The translations under genes and the position numbers were made by a program. A stretch of DNA of 64,000 bases from positions 744,001 to 808,000 of the forward strand of contig OY101119.1 in NCBI GenBank assembly GCA_956465555.1, given 5' to 3'. This DNA is from Nitzschia sp. pyKryTriq1 (lineage: Eukaryota; Bacillariophyta; Bacillariophyceae; Bacillariales; Bacillariaceae). The notes beneath the pieces were generated by a model that saw only the letters and a list, made by a program, of their open reading frames with translations, did not search any database and was not told the DNA's origin. This document shows, one piece after another, positions 1 through 26,696 of the stretch (positions are counted from its first letter, which is position 1; every line of letters begins with the position of its first letter).

Positions 1-3000
1 AAAAGGCGTCGGAGCCTTCGAAGAAAGTGGAGGATAAGATGACGACGAAGTGGGAATTGGTGCTTTAGCTGCGGCTGGCTGCCCAAAAGGGGTAGGCGCC
101 TCGCTAGATAATGGTGGATATGCGCCGCTTGAAGATGGCGTCGCCTTTGATTCAGCAAACGCAGTAGGAGCCCTCGACGACATTGGGGGATAGGACGAGG
201 ATGAAATCTTCTCAGCAGGCTTTGTCGCAGATCCAAAGAGAGTTGGTGCCTTTTGCGCCATTGGAGGGTATGCGCTATCAGTTTGAGGCTTGGCTACCTT
301 TCTGGATTCTTTTGGAGCCGCTGCACCGAAGGGGGTTGGTGCGGTCAATGACATAGGAGGATACGAGGAAGAAGTCGAAGAATCTTTCGATTTGTTTTCT
401 GCTTTTTGGTCTGACTCTTCTTTCTTGGCGGCAGGGGCCGGTGCACGAAAAGAAAATTCACCTCCGGTGCCAGACGCAAACGTAAAACCACCCCCGGGCT
501 TCTCCTTCCCATCACTGGTTGGAGCAGGTGCACCGCCAAAGCTGAAACCGCCACCAGATGACGATGCTCCACCTCCAAAAGTAAAGCCGCTAGCAGCCTT
601 CTCATCAGGCTTGGCTGAAGACGTCGAACCTCCACCAAAGCTGAAACCACCACCTCCAATGCTGCCACTGGGGACTCCTCCAAACGAAAATCCGCCACTG
701 CCGATCGCACCAGAGCCACTCGCTCCAGAAACAGCACCGGTCTTCACCTCAGGATCGTCTTCGAAACCTGGACGGATCGTCTCGCAGGCAGGGCATTTCT
801 TCTTGTCGCCAGTATTACGGACAGAACACACTTCGCATTTCCAGCTGTCCTTGTCCACTTGAAACAAACTACCCAAATCTTGCTTCGGGGCGTCATTGTC
901 AGCCGCACCACTAGAGTTTCCGCCGCGACCCTCGTTATCCTCGTCGTCTTCGAAGTCAGACCCATCATCATCCCCGAACAGCCAGTCCATATACCAAGCG
1001 ATAAAGTCTGTCTCGTGGATCTTGTCGCCGGGTTTCTTCAACTTTTTCACGACTTTTCCAAACTCGTCCTCGCCGTATGTACTTCCCAGATTTGTAATGA
1101 GCTGTTCCATGTCGCACACATTGATGACTCGAACACCTGCTTCGGTCATGCTCAGATCACCGAAACACTTGCGGGCCTTCTTTTCTTCGTCGGCGCGTTC
1201 GGCCTTTTCGTCGCTGTCTAACGAGTCGCTATCCTCGTCGTCGCCACCCTCCGCCAGAGCTGTGTACCAATCAATGAAGGTTACCCTCGTCATTGTACCA
1301 GAGCCAGATGGATCGAGGAGTTGAATTTGAACGTCACGCTCATCCCCATAAAAGCCTTCACCGAGCTCATCGAGGAGGTCTTCAAATTTATCAGTCGGCA
1401 AGGAGCCAGCTTTGTCCTTGTCCATTTCGTCAAAGATTCGAGCGGCCTTCTTGCCCGCAGCTGTCAATTTATCAGCTACTACAGCCTTTGCCGAGGTATC
1501 TTTAGATGGTTCTAAAGGAGTAGATGATTGTGTCTTCTCTTTTTCGGGGACAGAGGTTGAAGCACCAAAGGTGAACCCAGGGGCCCTGCTCGTCGTAGAT
1601 GTTGCGGCAAAGGTAAAGCCACCCCCGGGCTTCTCCTTCCCATCACTGGTTGGAGCAGGTGCACCGCCAAAGCTGAAACCGCCACCAGATGACGATGCTC
1701 CACCTCCAAAAGTAAAGCCGCTAGCAGCCTTCTCATCAGGCTTGGCTGAAGACGTCGAACCTCCACCAAAGCTGAAACCACCACCTCCAATGCTGCCACT
1801 GGGGACTCCTCCAAACGAAAATCCGCCACTGCCGATCGCACCAGAGCCACTCGCTCCAGAAACAGCACCGGTCTTCACCTCAGGATCGTCTTCGAAACCT
1901 GGACGGATCGTCTCGCAGGCAGGGCATTTCTTCTTGTCGCCAGTATTACGGACAGAACACACTTCGCATTTCCAGCTGTCCTTGTCCACTTGAAACAAAC
2001 TACCCAAATCTTGCTTCGGGGCGTCAGCGTCGCCACGTGTGTCTTTAGCACGGGCCTCATCATAGTCCTCACTGTCTTCGAAGTCAGACCCATCATCATC
2101 CCCGAACAGCCAGTCCATATACCAAGCGATAAAGTCTGTCTCGTGGATCTTGTCGCCGGGTTTCTTCAACTTTTTCACGACTTTTCCAAACTCGTCCTCG
2201 CCGTATGTACTTCCCAGATTTGTAATGAGCTGTTCCATGTCGCACACATTGATGACTCGAACACCTGCTTCGGTCATGCTCAGATCACCGAAACACTTGC
2301 GGGCCTTCTTTTCTTCGTCGGCGCGTTCGGCCTTTTCGTCGCTGTCTAACGAGTCGCTATCCTCGTCGTCGCCACCCTCCGCCAGAGCTGTGTACCAATC
2401 AATGAAGGTTACCCTCGCCATTGTACCAGAGCTAGATGGATCGAGGAGTTGAATTTGAACGTCACGCTCATCCCCATAAAAGCCCTCACCGAGCTCATCG
2501 AGGAGGTCTTCAAATTTATCAGTCGGTAAGGAGCCAGCTTTGTCCTTGTCCATTTCGTCAAAGATTCGAGCGGCCTTCTTGCCAGCAGCTGTCAACGACG
2601 TCGCGGCAACCTCTACTATAGAAGGTGGAGGTGCCTCCGTCGATGCGGAGGAATTAGGTTCCTTGGGCGTAGTTGGAGCAGGCGTAGCGGGCGTTCCAAA
2701 GAGTGGCTTAGCCATGGATGCCACACCCGGTGTTGACTTGGCGGGACTGCCAAATGCACCAAAGGGCGACGAAGATGTTCCAGTGGTGGGAATTTCGGAC
2801 CCGAACAAACTAGATTGAGTCGAAGACTTAGATTCTTGTCCTGAGGGCGATGCTCCCGGTTTTGGAATTTGCGATGCTAACTGACTAGTAGGAGTAGTAG
2901 GGCTGACCACTTCTCCCGCAGTTTTCTCAACCTTGGTGGGTGTATTACCAAACAAAGGCTTGACTGGTATGCCACCCATGGGGCTGGTAGCGGGTTTTTC

Positions 3001-4764
3001 AAACGCATTGAATTGATTGGAAGCAAATATTCCTGTTCCCTCGTTGGAGGCTGCAAGGGCGCCAAATCCAGTCGCAGGAGCTGTAGCAGAGGAGCCAAAA
3101 GTGAAGGCACCAAACGTTGGGGCGCTGCTAGAGGCTGAATCAGCTGGTTTTGGCGCTGGTGTAGATGCGGCTGCACCAAGGGGCGATGTGACACCAAATC
3201 CGGATGACCCGGAAGATCCAAACGAAAAGGATGTTTCTGTACCTTTGCCAAAAATGAGGCCGGAAGTTGAGCCAGAACCAAAAGCAGGAGCTGCTCCAGA
3301 ACCAAAAGAAGTGCTCGCTCCAACGCCAAACGGACTTGGTGAGGGGATAGGTGCCCCAAAAGAAAAGCCACTGGACGCAGATGATCCAAACGAGAAGGCT
3401 GAAGCAGGAGCTGAAGTTGCGACAGGCGCAGGGGCGCTAGGATGTGTCTCTGGGATAGGTGTCTCGGCAACGAGGTCAGGTGGACTAGACGATGCCGACT
3501 CTACAATTTTGACTGTAGATTCTGGTAGATCTGAAGAACGTTTGCCCGTTGGGGCAACAAAGCAGCTGGGATCATTTTCGTTTTCGAACGAAAAAAGCGA
3601 GATGGAACCGTCTGTGGCCGCAAGGAGCAGTCGAAAGGCATTCGATGGTAGTTGTACCACCTCTAACCCTACAGGAAAGTAGAATTCGTCATCTTCGTCA
3701 GTGGGTGTGGTTGCAGCAGCACCTTCTTGAAACTCCACCAGTCGCCATTTGGAACCATCAAGGGCTGCGGCTCCGACGTCGGATCCAACATTGGCGGCTA
3801 CAATGACTAGATTCTGTGCCGACTTGAGGACCGACGTAAAGTAGACATGCCGTCCACTTTTCGGGACAGTGAAGAAAGGCACCACATCACCCAACTCGGC
3901 CCAATCTCCAGCCGCATAAGAGGCCGAGTCAATGCTAGTCACAAAGAGTGCTGCTTCGTGTTCGGCAGTATCGTCCTCGTCGTCTTCGTCTGGTTCCTCG
4001 TCCGAGGGTGTGACGCGACACAGACCAGCTACTAGCGTGTCCCCGGTCCAGTCCAAATGAGTACAGGTGAATCCGTCTTCGTCGCTAGGAGAGCCAAGTT
4101 GTGATATGGATTCCAGTGTGTTTGAAAAGTTGAATATTTCAATCGAGCCATCCGTCTTGCCGATAGCGAGGCGAGAGCCGCTGTCTTGAGTAGGAGTCGA
4201 GGACCAAGCAGCGCTCGTAACATTTTCAACCGAAGCTATCACTGTAGGTTTCGAAGCAGCCGCATTGTAAAGTCGAAGTGTAGTGTTGTCGACGAGAAGC
4301 AGATCATAGTCTGATGCGGAAAAGGCCAACGATCGAATGGGGCCGGATGCCGCCGCGGCATTGGATCGGTCCGACGATGGCGAGGCCGAAGTATCTGGAA
4401 CCACATGAGAATGTGCATTCGCCAAGGTCCATCGCAACGTCATTGTCGATGCCGTTGAGTCCCAACATCGAAGTGACCCGTCTATACAAGCAACTGCAAC
4501 TAGGCGACCATCGGGCGAGGCCGCCATTTGAACAGCTGTCGAGTCCAGAGGACACGAGCATACCACAGCCACGCAATCTTCCTCCACTTGCATTCGATCC
4601 AAGCTGGAGGAAGTACATCGATATGCCAGACCCGCCACCGCAGATGGTGCTGTCAACCATTGCAACCCCGACGCCGTGGGACGCACGGCTACTGACAACG
4701 GAGTGCTACCCTCCAACGGGCTTCCCTTCAATTCGATCCGCAAAAAGTCATCAAGATTGGACAT
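1..4764 (-). CDS. NUP214: Nup214/Nup159-like FG nucleoporin with duplicated EF-hand-like and RanBP2 zinc-finger modules (3'-truncated by window edge)
   Basis: One frame stays open from ATG at 4764 to the window edge, 1,588 codons without a stop, so the C-terminus is missing. Residues 1-400 look like a WD/beta-propeller (SPDGRLVAVACIDGSLRCWD, later LLLAATDGSISLFSF), as at the N-terminus of Nup214/Nup159, which docks mRNA export factors at the cytoplasmic face of the nuclear pore. Residues about 430-720 are FG repeats (SFGS, FSFG, GFGV). Two modules follow, about residues 723-1050 and 1099-1427. Each holds two EF-hand-like helix pairs (FDEMDKDKAGSLPTDKF, LLDPSGSGTMTRVTFIDWY), an acidic linker, a RanBP2-type finger (WKCEVC, 10 residues, CPAC) and glycine-rich FG repeats. 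The visible tail repeats YPPxS...APTPFG. EF-loop positions 12 are K or T rather than E, so calcium binding is uncertain. Nucleoporin is firm; orthology to Nup214 rests on the propeller plus FG order. Confidence 0.82.
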   Translation of the reverse strand, partial: MSNLDDFLRIELKGSPLEGSTPLSVAVRPTASGLQWLTAPSAVAGLAYRCTSSSLDRMQVEEDCVAVVCSCPLDSTAVQMAASPDGRLVAVACIDGSLRCWDSTASTMTLRWTLANAHSHVVPDTSASPSSDRSNAAAASGPIRSLAFSASDYDLLLVDNTTLRLYNAAASKPTVIASVENVTSAAWSSTPTQDSGSRLAIGKTDGSIEIFNFSNTLESISQLGSPSDEDGFTCTHLDWTGDTLVAGLCRVTPSDEEPDEDDEDDTAEHEAALFVTSIDSASYAAGDWAELGDVVPFFTVPKSGRHVYFTSVLKSAQNLVIVAANVGSDVGAAALDGSKWRLVEFQEGAAATTPTDEDDEFYFPVGLEVVQLPSNAFRLLLAATDGSISLFSFENENDPSCFVAPTGKRSSDLPESTVKIVESASSSPPDLVAETPIPETHPSAPAPVATSAPASAFSFGSSASSGFSFGAPIPSPSPFGVGASTSFGSGAAPAFGSGSTSGLIFGKGTETSFSFGSSGSSGFGVTSPLGAAASTPAPKPADSASSSAPTFGAFTFGSSATAPATGFGALAASNEGTGIFASNQFNAFEKPATSPMGGIPVKPLFGNTPTKVEKTAGEVVSPTTPTSQLASQIPKPGASPSGQESKSSTQSSLFGSEIPTTGTSSSPFGAFGSPAKSTPGVASMAKPLFGTPATPAPTTPKEPNSSASTEAPPPSIVEVAATSLTAAGKKAARIFDEMDKDKAGSLPTDKFEDLLDELGEGFYGDERDVQIQLLDPSSSGTMARVTFIDWYTALAEGGDDEDSDSLDSDEKAERADEEKKARKCFGDLSMTEAGVRVINVCDMEQLITNLGSTYGEDEFGKVVKKLKKPGDKIHETDFIAWYMDWLFGDDDGSDFEDSEDYDEARAKDTRGDADAPKQDLGSLFQVDKDSWKCEVCSVRNTGDKKKCPACETIRPGFEDDPEVKTGAVSGASGSGAIGSGGFSFGGVPSGSIGGGGFSFGGGSTSSAKPDEKAASGFTFGGGASSSGGGFSFGGAPAPTSDGKEKPGGGFTFAATSTTSRAPGFTFGASTSVPEKEKTQSSTPLEPSKDTSAKAVVADKLTAAGKKAARIFDEMDKDKAGSLPTDKFEDLLDELGEGFYGDERDVQIQLLDPSGSGTMTRVTFIDWYTALAEGGDDEDSDSLDSDEKAERADEEKKARKCFGDLSMTEAGVRVINVCDMEQLITNLGSTYGEDEFGKVVKKLKKPGDKIHETDFIAWYMDWLFGDDDGSDFEDDEDNEGRGGNSSGAADNDAPKQDLGSLFQVDKDSWKCEVCSVRNTGDKKKCPACETIRPGFEDDPEVKTGAVSGASGSGAIGSGGFSFGGVPSGSIGGGGFSFGGGSTSSAKPDEKAASGFTFGGGASSSGGGFSFGGAPAPTSDGKEKPGGGFTFASGTGGEFSFRAPAPAAKKEESDQKAENKSKDSSTSSSYPPMSLTAPTPFGAAAPKESRKVAKPQTDSAYPPMAQKAPTLFGSATKPAEKISSSSYPPMSSRAPTAFAESKATPSSSGAYPPLSSEAPTPFGQPAAAKAPIPTSSSSYPPLSSKAPTPF
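482..1467. repeat. Nucleoporin internal module, copy A
   Basis: In-frame segment of about 986 bp nearly identical to 1613-2595 at an offset of 1,131 then 1,128 bases. It encodes EF-hand-like helices, an acidic linker, a RanBP2-type zinc finger and FG repeats. Outside the linker (about 890-950) only about five substitutions were seen by eye. Confidence 0.9.
1613..2595. repeat. Nucleoporin internal module, copy B
   Basis: Partner of 482-1467. It comes first in protein order because the gene is on the minus strand. The linker between EF-like helices and zinc finger differs in sequence and by one codon, while the flanks are almost identical. This suggests recent duplication or continuing conversion, or a mis-assembled repeat. 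Confidence 0.9.
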
Positions 4765-20807: not shown

Positions 20808-22043
20808 GGCGATACCCAATATTATGTACTCGTACCGGTAGTGCAATCTGTTCTGTTTTCAACCAAGTGAAGGGATCGTGAACGGAACCAGAATAGATGG
20901 CGTCCAGAGAAAACAGAGAAGTCGTGCTTGCTTGATTGTGCGGGTTTCCCTTTTTACTCTACTACGATCGTACAAGTTGACCAGTGTTGATGGCCATGGG
21001 CCATGGGCAAAAAATCGATCTTGTGTGGTCGGTGCACCGCGAGACACTTCTTCGCCGCTCGCTCGAGCAGGGACGGGAAAGAAGGGTACCCGGAGGTACC
21101 GGACCGACGGACGGACACTGATTATGTGGCTAAATGTTTGTCGTGAATTGGATTCTCGATGTACAGAAACAGTCCCAAATGGAGATCCAATCGGATGAGT
21201 CTGCGATTCAATCGGAAGTCTTGGAAGTGACGTTCCAGCGGAAACTATTGTTTACTATACATGAAGAATGAACAATACAATCCAACGATTGAGATTCCCT
21301 AAACGGAGCGAAAGGCTACCATAACAGGAAAGAATGTGGGATAGAGATATAGACAGTTGGGAGCGAATATTAGTATCTTCATCGCGGAAGATATGATTAA
21401 TTGGATCCGGCAGTTCCAAGACTGATCGGCGAGAGCAAAGATCCAAATCCAACAAGTGGAGTTATCAAAAGTAGAATAACATTGTCATAATCTCGAGTTT
21501 GAGACGAAGGTTTACTTTACTTGAGACAGGTTCGTGCGTCGGAAGATCAGACGAACTACTAGTAATACTACACGACACGGGACTGAGGAAGTAGTCCCAC
21601 GAGTCATCAGTCAGCTGACGAAGTACAGACTACGGAGATTTCAACAAATAATGTTCGCCTCCACAACGGAGGAGAACGCCTGTCGAGGACTTTGCCCGGC
21701 GCTACACGTAGTAGCTACACCGCCTCGTAATAACTGGGATGATTATTTTCTAAATTTGGGCTTCGCCGTCTCATCCTTCATCACTACGAGTACCAGATAC
21801 TTGTACCGTACGAAGCAAACCGGGGTACGGTACCAGGTACCCGGTACATGTAGGAAGTATCTACTGTACCGGTACCGTACAGTAATATCTTTCGCATCAT
21901 CATTCCTCTCCCTCGGCTAAATAGGAGTATCAAGGTACTGCACCAGGTATCACACATTTTCAATCATCCCTCATAACGCTATTGTTTATTAAGGATCAGA
22001 AAAGAGGAGTGGAAGGCCTGATTGAAAAAATCTGGCATCCAAC
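20808..22043. other. Intergenic: SF1 promoter and upstream part of duplicated unit 1
   Basis: 1.24 kb without a supported gene. From about 21140 it is homologous to 24120-24600, the matching region upstream of the second membrane-protein paralogue. TACCGGTA-type palindromes cluster at 21790-21890. Confidence 0.6.
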
Positions 22044-23786
22044 ATGCCACCAAGTCAACAGAATGCCGTCGATGTCACGACAGATGTGTGCGCCCGAAGT
22101 TGCGGGTTATTCATGGTGGCTATGGCTTTAACAGGAGCCGTTCTTGCTTGCGCTTCGCTCGCGAGTTGCAACTTTTTGATTATACGTTTTCCCGATCTGC
22201 CTCCTAATGCAACTGCAGATAACACTGGTGGACGACTTCTCGACGACTGGGAGCATCGTCTTCTCGACCAGCCTAGCTTCAACGAGACCATGTACCCATC
22301 ATCATCATCATCACCATCACTAGCACCCTCTCTCGGGCCTACAGCTACACCTATAACATCAATTTCAGTCGGAATGTTCAAGTATTTGGATGAAGCGGAT
22401 AGCATGTGTTACTACTACAACAGCACTACCATTACCAGGCTTGGGACTGAATACAGAGTGTCTCGCCTTGGTAGTGCTTCCGTCGCCATTGCTTCTCTGG
22501 TGGCCACGGGGATCCTATTGTTGGAGTATTGTTTCTGTCGCTTTTTCTGTGCTCGTACCATGGTAGCCACCATGTGCGTCATTGTTTTATTAGGAGTGCC
22601 AACGGCCTTTGTGATGTTCTTCGACCCCCGATGCAGGACATTCGACAATGTATTTAACATTTGCGAACGAGGGCAGGGTGCCAATGCACTCATCGCGGCC
22701 GCTACCTTGTACCTCGCCACGCTCATTTTGTTGTGCTTTACCCCCAAAGCTGTTCCCATCATTCGGGTGATGGACACAATCGATTGTCAAGCCTTGGATA
22801 GTTCTGGCTGGTGTACATGCTGTATCATTCCCTCACGTCGACGGGACAAAAAGGACGTCATTGTACCAGACGAAGAAGTGGAGTTAATCCAGAATGAGGA
22901 CGGGCATACATTCAAACAATACCATGATGAAATGGCGGGGCTGACATTTCAGAATCAATATACAGCCGCCTACAAAAGATGGCTGGCGTTTGAAGCGGAC
23001 TATGAAACTACACTTGCAAGATTCAAAGAAGACTGCGAGGAGGCGGATGTCAACTGGAGAGTATTTTTGAGAAAGGCCAGAATGCGCGAGCGAGGGGGGA
23101 CCTTTGAGGACGAACCATCAATGGCTACCGACGATGAGGAGCAGCATCTGGACGAGGAGCTGATTCGATTTGTGGGTGTTTTGAATACGCTTCGGCGGAA
23201 CTGCGACTTTGCTAAAGAAGTCATGGAGAGGATACAGAAAGATATCAATGACCAAGCGCAGCACGAAGACGAGATCAAGCGCCGACAGGCAGAGGAAGCA
23301 TTGAAGAAAAATAGCAAAAAAAACACATGGGAGAGCTTAACAAATCCGAAAGGTCATCAAGAGGAGGGGGTTGACGCAACGGAATCTCAATCCAAAGTAG
23401 GCACGATATTCTCGAAGTTATCGCACCAGCTGAAGGGCATATCGAGCCATACTAGTGTAATGAAGGATCAAGATGGCGATATGTTTAAATCGGCTCGAAT
23501 GGGCCCTCGGGATGATGACATTTCGAATCCGGCATCGGCTAGGACGGGCAATCGTGACGGTGATATTTTTGGCGCAACTCGAGTTAATGTTGCACAAGAC
23601 GATCTTTCTATGGGAGTCAATGAATCCTTTGTTCCAAGCCAGCATGATCGCATTGAAGAAGAACCGCCCACGAAAGAGAAAAGGCCAGTCGCCGATTTTG
23701 TACTTGGAGTGACCGGAATTGAATGGGCTCTGAACAAAGTACGAGGCCACGACGTTGGCGCTGCAGAATCCGAGTCGAGCGCCTGA
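22044..23786 (+). CDS. Four-helix membrane protein with long cytoplasmic tail, paralogue 1
   Basis: Single exon of 580 residues; family not recognised. Predicted helices lie near 16-43 (FMVAMALTGAVLACASL), 143-168 (SVAIASLVATGILLLEYCFC), 172-193 (MCVIVLLGVPTAFVMFF) and 212-236 (ALIAAATLYLATLILLCFT). A Ser/Thr-rich loop of about 100 residues with NxS/T sites and a MCYYYNSTT motif joins helices 1 and 2. The roughly 340-residue tail is charged, with a probable coiled coil (about 290-420; FKEDCEEADVNWRVFLRKAR, VMERIQKDINDQAQHEDEIK), then repeated DGDMF/DGDIF...SARxG motifs. The layout resembles tetraspan proteins only in topology. Its neighbour at 24900 is a tandem copy. The role is unknown; a scaffold at a membrane is a guess from the coiled-coil tail. 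Confidence 0.8.
   Translation: MPPSQQNAVDVTTDVCARSCGLFMVAMALTGAVLACASLASCNFLIIRFPDLPPNATADNTGGRLLDDWEHRLLDQPSFNETMYPSSSSSPSLAPSLGPTATPITSISVGMFKYLDEADSMCYYYNSTTITRLGTEYRVSRLGSASVAIASLVATGILLLEYCFCRFFCARTMVATMCVIVLLGVPTAFVMFFDPRCRTFDNVFNICERGQGANALIAAATLYLATLILLCFTPKAVPIIRVMDTIDCQALDSSGWCTCCIIPSRRRDKKDVIVPDEEVELIQNEDGHTFKQYHDEMAGLTFQNQYTAAYKRWLAFEADYETTLARFKEDCEEADVNWRVFLRKARMRERGGTFEDEPSMATDDEEQHLDEELIRFVGVLNTLRRNCDFAKEVMERIQKDINDQAQHEDEIKRRQAEEALKKNSKKNTWESLTNPKGHQEEGVDATESQSKVGTIFSKLSHQLKGISSHTSVMKDQDGDMFKSARMGPRDDDISNPASARTGNRDGDIFGATRVNVAQDDLSMGVNESFVPSQHDRIEEEPPTKEKRPVADFVLGVTGIEWALNKVRGHDVGAAESESSA
22668..23744. repeat. Near-identical conversion-like tract, copy 1
   Basis: 1,077 bp matching 25572-26648 with a single difference seen (A at 23670, G at 26574). 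Sequence on either side is clearly diverged between the two genes. The sharp limits indicate gene conversion or unequal exchange rather than simple duplication age. Confidence 0.85.
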
Positions 23787-24026: not shown

Positions 24027-24899
24027 GTTCTACAAAGGCAGCATGGTATATGCCCTATACACCGAGGGCCAGACAAAGAAGAGATCATGCGCACAGTCGA
24101 GCGCATGAAAGCTACAGGACTCGACATATCGAATGAGTCTGCGATGCAATCGGAAAGCTATCTTAGAAGCGATGCTCCGGTGGAAACTATTGTTTCCTAT
24201 ACATGAAGATTCTAGATTGTCATCCAATGAATGAGATTCCCTAACTGTGGCAAACGATGATCATAACAAACAATCTTGTGGGATCAAGATTTAGACGGTT
24301 GAAACAATAACTTCCATCTTCATCGTGGAAGATAGTCATAGTTGGATTCGTCAGTTCCAAGATTGATCAGCGATGGCAAAGATCCGATGCCAACAAGTAA
24401 AGTCATCAAAGATAGAATAACAAGTGTCATAATCTCAAGTTTGAGACGGAAGTTTACTTTACTTGAGATAGGTTCGTGCCTCGGAAGAGCAGACGAAGAA
24501 CTATTCGCTAACATCGACACTACTGTACAGTACAGCCAACGGGCTGAGGAATTGGTCCTACTAGTCACAGCGTCAGCTGACAACGTACATACAGACTAGG
24601 AGATTTCAACAGGCGGCGGCAGGCGGCTTATTATTGGCTTCGCCCTCTCATCGCTCAACTAATATTACAGCGGTAAACTACAGTACTCTTACCGGTACAA
24701 GTATCTTCCATTCTCTCAGTTCTCGGCTAGCCAGATACCATAGCACTTTGCGCTAATCTCATCGCTCTCCGCTTTGAATGTTACTATCTCTTTATAAAGG
24801 ATCAGAAAAGAGGAGTGGAAGGCCTGGTCGAAAATTCGCATGCCCACTCATTTTTGAAAGAAATCCGGTTGAGAAAACGAGAAAAATCTAGCATCAAAC

Positions 24900-26696
24900 A
24901 TGCCACCAAGTCAACAGAATGCCGTCGATGTCACGACAGATGTGTGCGCCCGAAGTTGCGGGTTATTCATGGTGGCTATGGCTTTAACAGGAGCCGTTCT
25001 TGCTTGCGCTTCGTTCACGAGTTGCAACTTTTTGATATTAAACTTTTCCGGTCTGCCTCCTAATATAACTGCAGGTAACACTGGTGGACGACTTCTCGAC
25101 GACTGGGAGCATCGTCTTCTCGACCAGCCTATCTTCAACGAGACCATGTACCCATCATCATCATCATCATCATCATCATCACTAGCACCCTCTCTCGGGC
25201 CTACAGCTACACTAATAACATCAACTACGCGTACGCTCGGAATGTTCAAGTATTTGGATGAAGCGGATAGCATGTGTTACTACTACAACAGCACTACCAT
25301 TGTGCAGACCCCGCTCCAAATCAGAGTGGCTCGCCTTGGCGGTGCTTCCGTCGCTATTGCTTCTCTGGTGGCCACGGGGATCCTATTGTTGGAGTATTGT
25401 TTCTGTCGCTTTTACTGTGCTCGTGCGATTGTTTCCGCCATGTCTGTCTTTGTTTTATTAGGAGCGCCAATGGCCTTTGTGGTGTTCTTCGATCCGCGGT
25501 GCAGGACTTTCACTAATTTTGTGAACATTTGCGCACAGGGGCAGAATGCCGATGCAATTGTCACGGCGGACCGAGGGCAGGGTGCCAATGCACTCATCGC
25601 GGCCGCTACCTTGTACCTCGCCACGCTCATTTTGTTGTGCTTTACCCCCAAAGCTGTTCCCATCATTCGGGTGATGGACACAATCGATTGTCAAGCCTTG
25701 GATAGTTCTGGCTGGTGTACATGCTGTATCATTCCCTCACGTCGACGGGACAAAAAGGACGTCATTGTACCAGACGAAGAAGTGGAGTTAATCCAGAATG
25801 AGGACGGGCATACATTCAAACAATACCATGATGAAATGGCGGGGCTGACATTTCAGAATCAATATACAGCCGCCTACAAAAGATGGCTGGCGTTTGAAGC
25901 GGACTATGAAACTACACTTGCAAGATTCAAAGAAGACTGCGAGGAGGCGGATGTCAACTGGAGAGTATTTTTGAGAAAGGCCAGAATGCGCGAGCGAGGG
26001 GGGACCTTTGAGGACGAACCATCAATGGCTACCGACGATGAGGAGCAGCATCTGGACGAGGAGCTGATTCGATTTGTGGGTGTTTTGAATACGCTTCGGC
26101 GGAACTGCGACTTTGCTAAAGAAGTCATGGAGAGGATACAGAAAGATATCAATGACCAAGCGCAGCACGAAGACGAGATCAAGCGCCGACAGGCAGAGGA
26201 AGCATTGAAGAAAAATAGCAAAAAAAACACATGGGAGAGCTTAACAAATCCGAAAGGTCATCAAGAGGAGGGGGTTGACGCAACGGAATCTCAATCCAAA
26301 GTAGGCACGATATTCTCGAAGTTATCGCACCAGCTGAAGGGCATATCGAGCCATACTAGTGTAATGAAGGATCAAGATGGCGATATGTTTAAATCGGCTC
26401 GAATGGGCCCTCGGGATGATGACATTTCGAATCCGGCATCGGCTAGGACGGGCAATCGTGACGGTGATATTTTTGGCGCAACTCGAGTTAATGTTGCACA
26501 AGACGATCTTTCTATGGGAGTCAATGAATCCTTTGTTCCAAGCCAGCATGATCGCATTGAAGAAGAACCGCCCGCGAAAGAGAAAAGGCCAGTCGCCGAT
26601 TTTGTACTTGGAGTGACCGGAATTGAATGGGCTCTGAACAAAGTACGACACCATGACGATGATGGCGCTACAAAAGTGGAATCGAGCGCCTCATGA
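24900..26696 (+). CDS. Four-helix membrane protein with long cytoplasmic tail, paralogue 2
   Basis: Single exon of 598 residues, tandem paralogue of 22044-23786 with the same four hydrophobic segments and cytoplasmic coiled-coil tail. The first helix and the extracytoplasmic loop differ at many residues, and helices 2-3 moderately (ARAIVSAMSVFVLLGAPMAF). From GQGANALIAA on, the two proteins are identical except T/A once and the last dozen residues. Just before the identical part this copy carries 18 extra residues (QGQNADAIVTADRGQGANAL), in which QGQNADAI and RGQGANAL look like native and imported versions of one motif side by side. A chimaeric origin by recombination at that motif is inferred. 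The family remains unrecognised. Confidence 0.8.
   Translation: MPPSQQNAVDVTTDVCARSCGLFMVAMALTGAVLACASFTSCNFLILNFSGLPPNITAGNTGGRLLDDWEHRLLDQPIFNETMYPSSSSSSSSSLAPSLGPTATLITSTTRTLGMFKYLDEADSMCYYYNSTTIVQTPLQIRVARLGGASVAIASLVATGILLLEYCFCRFYCARAIVSAMSVFVLLGAPMAFVVFFDPRCRTFTNFVNICAQGQNADAIVTADRGQGANALIAAATLYLATLILLCFTPKAVPIIRVMDTIDCQALDSSGWCTCCIIPSRRRDKKDVIVPDEEVELIQNEDGHTFKQYHDEMAGLTFQNQYTAAYKRWLAFEADYETTLARFKEDCEEADVNWRVFLRKARMRERGGTFEDEPSMATDDEEQHLDEELIRFVGVLNTLRRNCDFAKEVMERIQKDINDQAQHEDEIKRRQAEEALKKNSKKNTWESLTNPKGHQEEGVDATESQSKVGTIFSKLSHQLKGISSHTSVMKDQDGDMFKSARMGPRDDDISNPASARTGNRDGDIFGATRVNVAQDDLSMGVNESFVPSQHDRIEEEPPAKEKRPVADFVLGVTGIEWALNKVRHHDDDGATKVESSAS
25572..26648. repeat. Near-identical conversion-like tract, copy 2
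   Basis: Partner of 22668-23744. The left limit coincides with the duplicated gggcag..tgcc.atgca motif (25540-25590), a likely recombination junction. Confidence 0.85.

Follow-up and report, generated by a model that had tools for sequence, protein, structure and literature searches.

The minus strand at the start of a 64,000-nucleotide stretch from the diatom Nitzschia sp. pyKryTriq1 (contig OY101119.1, positions 744,001 to 808,000; hereafter the window) encodes the 5′ part of a phenylalanine-glycine (FG) nucleoporin of the Nup214 type with two near-identical tandem copies of a cassette, each comprising two EF-hand pairs, an acidic linker, a RanBP2-type zinc finger and FxFG repeats. We lean slightly towards the view that a Nup214-type nucleoporin of the cytoplasmic face acquired this cassette in a diatom, and that each copy joins a calcium-free EF-hand adaptor to a finger that would hold Ran. 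The basis of this view at the level of sequence is the frame, the domains, the two copies, the finger subtype and the lack of a canonical calcium loop. The architecture itself is real and well founded, and from it we infer the function. Sequence comparisons covered the organism's own genome (an assembly of 40.65 Mb in 20 contigs, in which the window is G000:C5:744001-808000) and the PDB.

The reading frame opened with an ATG at window position 4764 and stayed free of stops as far as the window edge. With the flanking DNA included, the stop followed 2882 codons, the last sense codon being G000:C5:740119-740121. The first 1588 codons correspond to window 1..4764 (minus strand, as for all features of this gene below), and the 3′ part of the gene lies outside the window. 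If equal codon use is assumed, the probability of a stop-free run over 2882 codons by chance is approximately 10^-60. The encoded protein begins with a propeller-like region (residues ~1-420; window 3505..4764), followed by a first FG region delimited by FG positions (residues 459-690; window 2695..3390), cassette 1 (residues 725-1050; window 2592-1615) and cassette 2 (residues 1101-1427; window 1464-484). Downstream of the cassettes are a long array of YPPLSSKAPTPFG-type repeats (residues 1466 to ~1917, the start of the array occupying window 1..369), an FG-poor stretch of 524 residues recognized by residue composition (1917-2441), and FG-rich C-terminal parts that contain two short helical-looking modules. 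FG dipeptides numbered 71 against 16.1 expected, and the maximum in 2000 shuffles was 32; 65 of the 71 were outside the EF blocks, and the six inside them are not FG repeats.

Pfam analysis of the window part of the protein (residues 1-1588) matched EF-hand_7 in two stretches (43.9 bits for the two copies together, cut-off 30) and Zn_ribbon_RanBP, also in two stretches (36.8 bits, cut-off 27). The EF block of one cassette alone scored 29.8 bits (E 7.7e-7), marginally under the EF-hand_7 cut-off, so that only the combined copies pass it. In cassette 1, EF-hand pair A (residues 725-798; window 2371..2592), delimited by Pfam and the loop pattern, is followed by pair B (residues 812-888; window 2101..2331), which is light-chain-like by its PDB matches and has no calcium-type loop, an acidic linker (residues 888-914; window 2023..2103) unlike that of copy 2, the zinc finger with its N-terminal extension (residues 920-958; window 1891..2007), placed by Pfam, PDB and pattern, and FxFG repeats with a tail (residues 959-1070; window 1555..1890). 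Cassette 2 repeats this order with pair A (residues 1101-1174; window 1243..1464; Pfam and pattern), pair B (residues 1188-1264; window 973..1203), an acidic linker with glycine (residues 1264-1291; window 892..975), the zinc finger (residues 1297-1335; window 760..876; Pfam and pattern) and FxFG repeats (residues 1336-1437; window 454..759); the linkers, the FxFG regions, cassette 2 pair B and the long array were delimited from the sequence. An earlier note on this DNA had described a propeller-FG nucleoporin carrying EF-hand-like pairs, RanBP2-type fingers and FG repeats twice in one frame, and had suggested a profile search as a check. The frame and the Pfam matches bear out that description, the coordinates given for it were correct, and the profile search returned both families above cut-off.

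The two copies were compared codon by codon over residues 725-1048 of the first, excluding the linker. Five codons differed, all within the first 60; three of the differences were silent, and two changed the amino acid (778 Ser/Gly and 783 Ala/Thr). The further ~248 codons were without a difference (Fisher test p 2.4e-4, with counts entered by hand and the 60-codon border picked after inspection of the data). In the linker (residues 898-913), 12 codons differed, nine of them changing the residue, and there were gaps in addition. This mosaic fits an older duplication that was evened out by gene conversion from which the linker was exempt. The long stretches of identical DNA would also be expected if the tandem copy were an artefact of assembly; however, the differing linkers and the differing sequences that flank the two copies speak against this, as do the five codon differences at the start, and we regard an artefact as highly improbable.

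The EF block was assigned to the EF-hand superfamily from its likeness to profiles and known sequences. Pair A is the part that matches EF-hand_7. Even at an E limit of 10, pair B alone matched nothing in Pfam; a PDB search with an E limit of 5 gave 25 matches, the first three of which (E 2.3e-4, the best value, to 0.0011) are myosin regulatory light chains. By name, 21 of the 25 were calmodulin, myosin regulatory light chain, calcium vector protein or calcium indicator, and the remaining four names were uninformative (dynein light chain 4A twice, 'myosin head' chain Y and AT15141p). Pairs A and B aligned with a score of 50, which was reached in one of 2000 shuffles (score 58), and have FIxWY and further core positions in common. 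With the whole block as query, 140 PDB matches passed an E limit of 1; the best 60 of them were led by myosin light chains and calmodulin (E 0.004) and included a few proteins that are not EF-hand proteins by name. By these comparisons the block appears nearest to light chains and calmodulin, minus the calcium ligands. Like calmodulin and the myosin regulatory light chain, it has two EF-hand pairs and a hinge, and pair B is nearest to the regulatory light chains; unlike them, it is embedded in a nucleoporin chain and has no canonical calcium loop.

The earlier note had raised the possibility of calcium sensing, with the reservation that position 12 of the loops was not Glu. The reservation held. 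In all 2882 residues there was no match to the PROSITE EF-hand pattern, in the form used here, whereas all five control EF-hand loci tested in the same genome had at least one match. The loops of cassette 1 pair A (739-750 and 775-786) lack the position-12 acid, the residue there in pair A being Lys or Thr, and pair B failed a relaxed pattern as well. Calcium sensing is unsupported, because no loop matches the canonical calcium pattern. A calcium sensor coupled to transport might be argued for from the likeness to EF hands and the strongly acidic surroundings, but with the loops as they are we consider it extremely unlikely. I read the block instead as a probable calcium-free, light-chain-like adaptor. 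A different explanation gives the block no ligand and makes it a folded, passive spacer that is present twice merely through recent duplication. The missing canonical loops, the very acidic hinge and linker, and the near-identity of the DNA of the copies are all consistent with such a spacer. The retention of FIxWY and the core positions in both pairs suggests, without deciding the matter, that a groove is maintained, and we find the spacer somewhat unlikely. The alternatives considered here and below are not all mutually exclusive.

Both cassette fingers keep the pattern W-x-C-x2-C-x3-N-x6-C-x2-C, and their sequences are identical to each other. A PDB search with the finger and its N-terminal extension found 36 chains within an E limit of 1. 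Those of Nup358 gave E values of 2e-28 to 2e-17, in which several fingers are summed, and Nup153 gave 1.8e-11 (two fingers) and 2.9e-7 (one finger). YAF2 (0.0022) overlapped the weakest single nucleoporin fingers, and RYBP followed at 0.048; the RNA and ubiquitin types came no nearer than 0.08, with ZRANB1/TRABID at 0.08-0.13, RBM10 at 0.29 and ZRANB2 at 0.57. By sequence, the cassette finger is therefore nearest to the Nup358/Nup153 fingers rather than to RNA or ubiquitin fingers. A Pfam search of the genome gave 10 finger matches, and a Nup153-like finger was added for comparison. Among the in-genome fingers, seven distinct ones read CT[LF]xN and two have N-F. The start GxLFxxxKxxWKC was confined, among the 10 matches and the added finger, to the two cassette fingers and the Nup153-like finger.

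The Nup153-like finger belongs to an FG frame near 663,000 of the same contig (G000:C5:662969-663163), ~77 kb from the Nup214-type gene. As read, this frame has 1260 codons from stop to stop, one nucleoporin-type finger followed by GGFSFG repeats, 38 FG dipeptides and no EF block. Its finger scored 19.1 bits in Pfam (cut-off 27) and was nearest to Nup358/Nup153 in the PDB.

RNA-type fingers carry an aromatic residue and paired Arg. These are absent from the segment C-S-V-R-N-T-G-D-K-K-K-C of the cassette finger; moreover, ZRANB2 and RBM10, whose fingers are of the RNA type, are far more distant from it than Nup358/Nup153. Both points argue against an alternative in which the fingers take RNA, with or without competition from Ran, and the protein would catch exported mRNA and not Ran. 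On the other hand, human Nup358 fingers are described, in the excerpted text of one paper, as binding signal-sequence RNA in competition with Ran (PMC3635865); likeness to Nup358 is therefore compatible with RNA binding, and Nup214 is itself listed in part of another source as a member of an mRNA-export assembly (PMC13242641). This mRNA-catching alternative is, in our estimate, unlikely.

The Nup214-type label is given because of the propeller match, the FG repeats and the presence of a Nup88 match in the same genome (35.8 bits, cut-off 24.4); orthology to Nup214 is presumed from these and not proven. The Pfam NUP159/214 propeller (PF16755) matched residues 142-332 with 27.8 bits, under its cut-off of 29.6 (E 2e-6). 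Other WD40 models on the propeller were each under their own cut-off, EML_2 (30.1 bits, cut-off 90) scoring slightly above NUP159/214. The best 60 of the 117 PDB matches were mostly general WD40 chains, and none of those 60 was named Nup214 or Nup159. Nup214 and Nup159 are marked by a coiled coil that connects them to Nup88 and Nup62, by a place on the cytoplasmic face and by binding of Dbp5. Residues 1880-2250 of the diatom protein matched no Pfam family, and the FG-poor stretch is perhaps that coiled coil. The diatom protein resembles Nup214/Nup159 in its N-terminal propeller-like region, its FG regions and its long FG-poor stretch, with a Nup88 match in the genome, and differs in having two cassettes between FG regions. 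To our knowledge, animal and yeast Nup214 and Nup159 have neither EF hands nor zinc fingers. The sub-threshold propeller score and a finger type in common with the Nup153-like protein would also suit a different propeller-FG nucleoporin, perhaps on the basket side beside that protein. Between the two nucleoporin propeller models with a match, however, NUP159/214 outscored Nup120/160 (14.1 bits), and a separate gene in the genome already looks Nup153-like. We judge such an identity distinctly unlikely and retain the Nup214 type.

For a Nup214-type protein carrying the cassettes, the following mechanism is proposed, in which we infer Nup214 orthology, location, Ran binding and a helix partner. 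A bilobal EF-hand domain without calcium sites would serve as a fixed adaptor of the light-chain kind, and its most likely role would be to hold a partner helix without calcium; this step, drawn by analogy with light chains, is the least certain. The Nup358/Nup153-type finger would hold Ran amid the FxFG repeats, which would bind transport receptors. The propeller would bring the mRNA-export helicase, such that Ran, transport receptors and helicase would be gathered at one place; the available part of one source has the Nup214 N-terminal domain modulating the helicase DDX19 at the cytoplasmic face, where animal Nup358 is placed with many Ran-binding and zinc-finger domains (PMC13242641). The cassettes would in this way give the Nup214-type protein a Ran-holding job, within a gathering role that in animals belongs to Nup358 beside Nup214.

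The cassettes resemble Nup358/RanBP2 and Nup153 in finger subtype, including the N-terminal extension, and in the position of the finger beside FG repeats. In contrast, the diatom fingers reside in a propeller protein, one per EF block and two in total, with no RanBP1 match. RanBP1 domains were sought by a six-frame search of the whole genome at E up to 0.01, which works exon by exon. Four matches were obtained. One pair had the same score and the same frame length (173), and the other two fell singly in frames of 571 and 424 codons that also carry FG. By this search the Nup214-type gene had no RanBP1 match, and the genome showed no Nup358-like protein in which RanBP1 domains occur several times.

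An FG frame near G000:C10:764,531-764,656 (1004 codons in the stretch read, 1021 in another reading; 24 FG) contains a clear cyclophilin domain (Pfam Pro_isomerase, 151.4 bits, cut-off 21.7), preceded by a short module of helical appearance and followed by further FG repeats and an acidic tail. Like Nup358, it combines FG repeats with cyclophilin. A tentative extension of the proposal, which we consider possible but doubtful, is that diatoms spread the Nup358 tool kit, with Ran fingers on the Nup214-type protein, cyclophilin on a separate FG protein, and a calcium-free calmodulin-like adaptor per finger forming a Ran-dependent docking unit. No docking unit of this kind at any nuclear pore was found in the literature searched.

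Separately, one RanBP1 and two light-harvesting matches recurred with equal scores and in the same order at C1 ~4.28-4.32 Mb and C3 ~3.14-3.19 Mb, and the distances between them are alike (2.8 kb on both contigs; 37.1 kb against 39.8 kb). Either a large segment was duplicated or the assembly contains one stretch twice. The genome as a whole gave 72 light-harvesting and eight silicon-transporter matches, a content that very probably marks a diatom.

A short module, approximately FYxxxNPxKxxxVxxxLxKYxG, recurs in otherwise unrelated-looking diatom proteins (five frames read). In the Nup214-type gene it is at residues ~2484-2522 and 2709-2756. A 48-residue query made from the second C-terminal module matched the genome 11 times within an E limit of 1, and this gene accounts for two of the matches; the two module-bearing pieces of the gene reached no Pfam cut-off. 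Elsewhere in the window, on the plus strand, the neighbouring frames 22026-23783 and 24873-26693 share an almost identical N terminus, and neither matches a Pfam family at E up to 1e-4.

Two pore proteins of other organisms offer partial parallels. Trypanosoma TbNup149, according to portions of two papers (PMC4758718, PMC11825100), is likewise a pore protein built from repeat domains, three in number and nearly identical, in which putative zinc fingers occur together with some FG (18); it is in the NUP76 complex and is placed on the cytoplasmic side. Its fingers are said there to be of another kind, without obvious likeness to those of Nup358/Nup153, and an EF block and a propeller are unmentioned in those portions. 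Centrin-2 is an EF-hand protein counted as a pore subunit in part of one source (PMC10034585); it is, however, a separate protein, whereas the diatom EF block is a domain within an FG nucleoporin. Among the matches listed in a literature search that covered few subscription journals, none dealt with a diatom nucleoporin that has EF hands or Ran fingers, and a Toxoplasma pore preprint (PMC12407827) gave no match to the terms searched.

In excerpts from a survey and a review, Nup358 with Ran fingers is marked for opisthokonts only (PMC2951903) and Nup358 is termed vertebrate-specific (PMC8421043). If the proposal is true, fingers of the same subtype on a diatom Nup214-type protein would show another way in which Ran can be concentrated at the cytoplasmic face; a folded part such as the EF block would be unusual within an FG protein. 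The reason that pores need a Ran depot would then become testable in a genetically workable alga.
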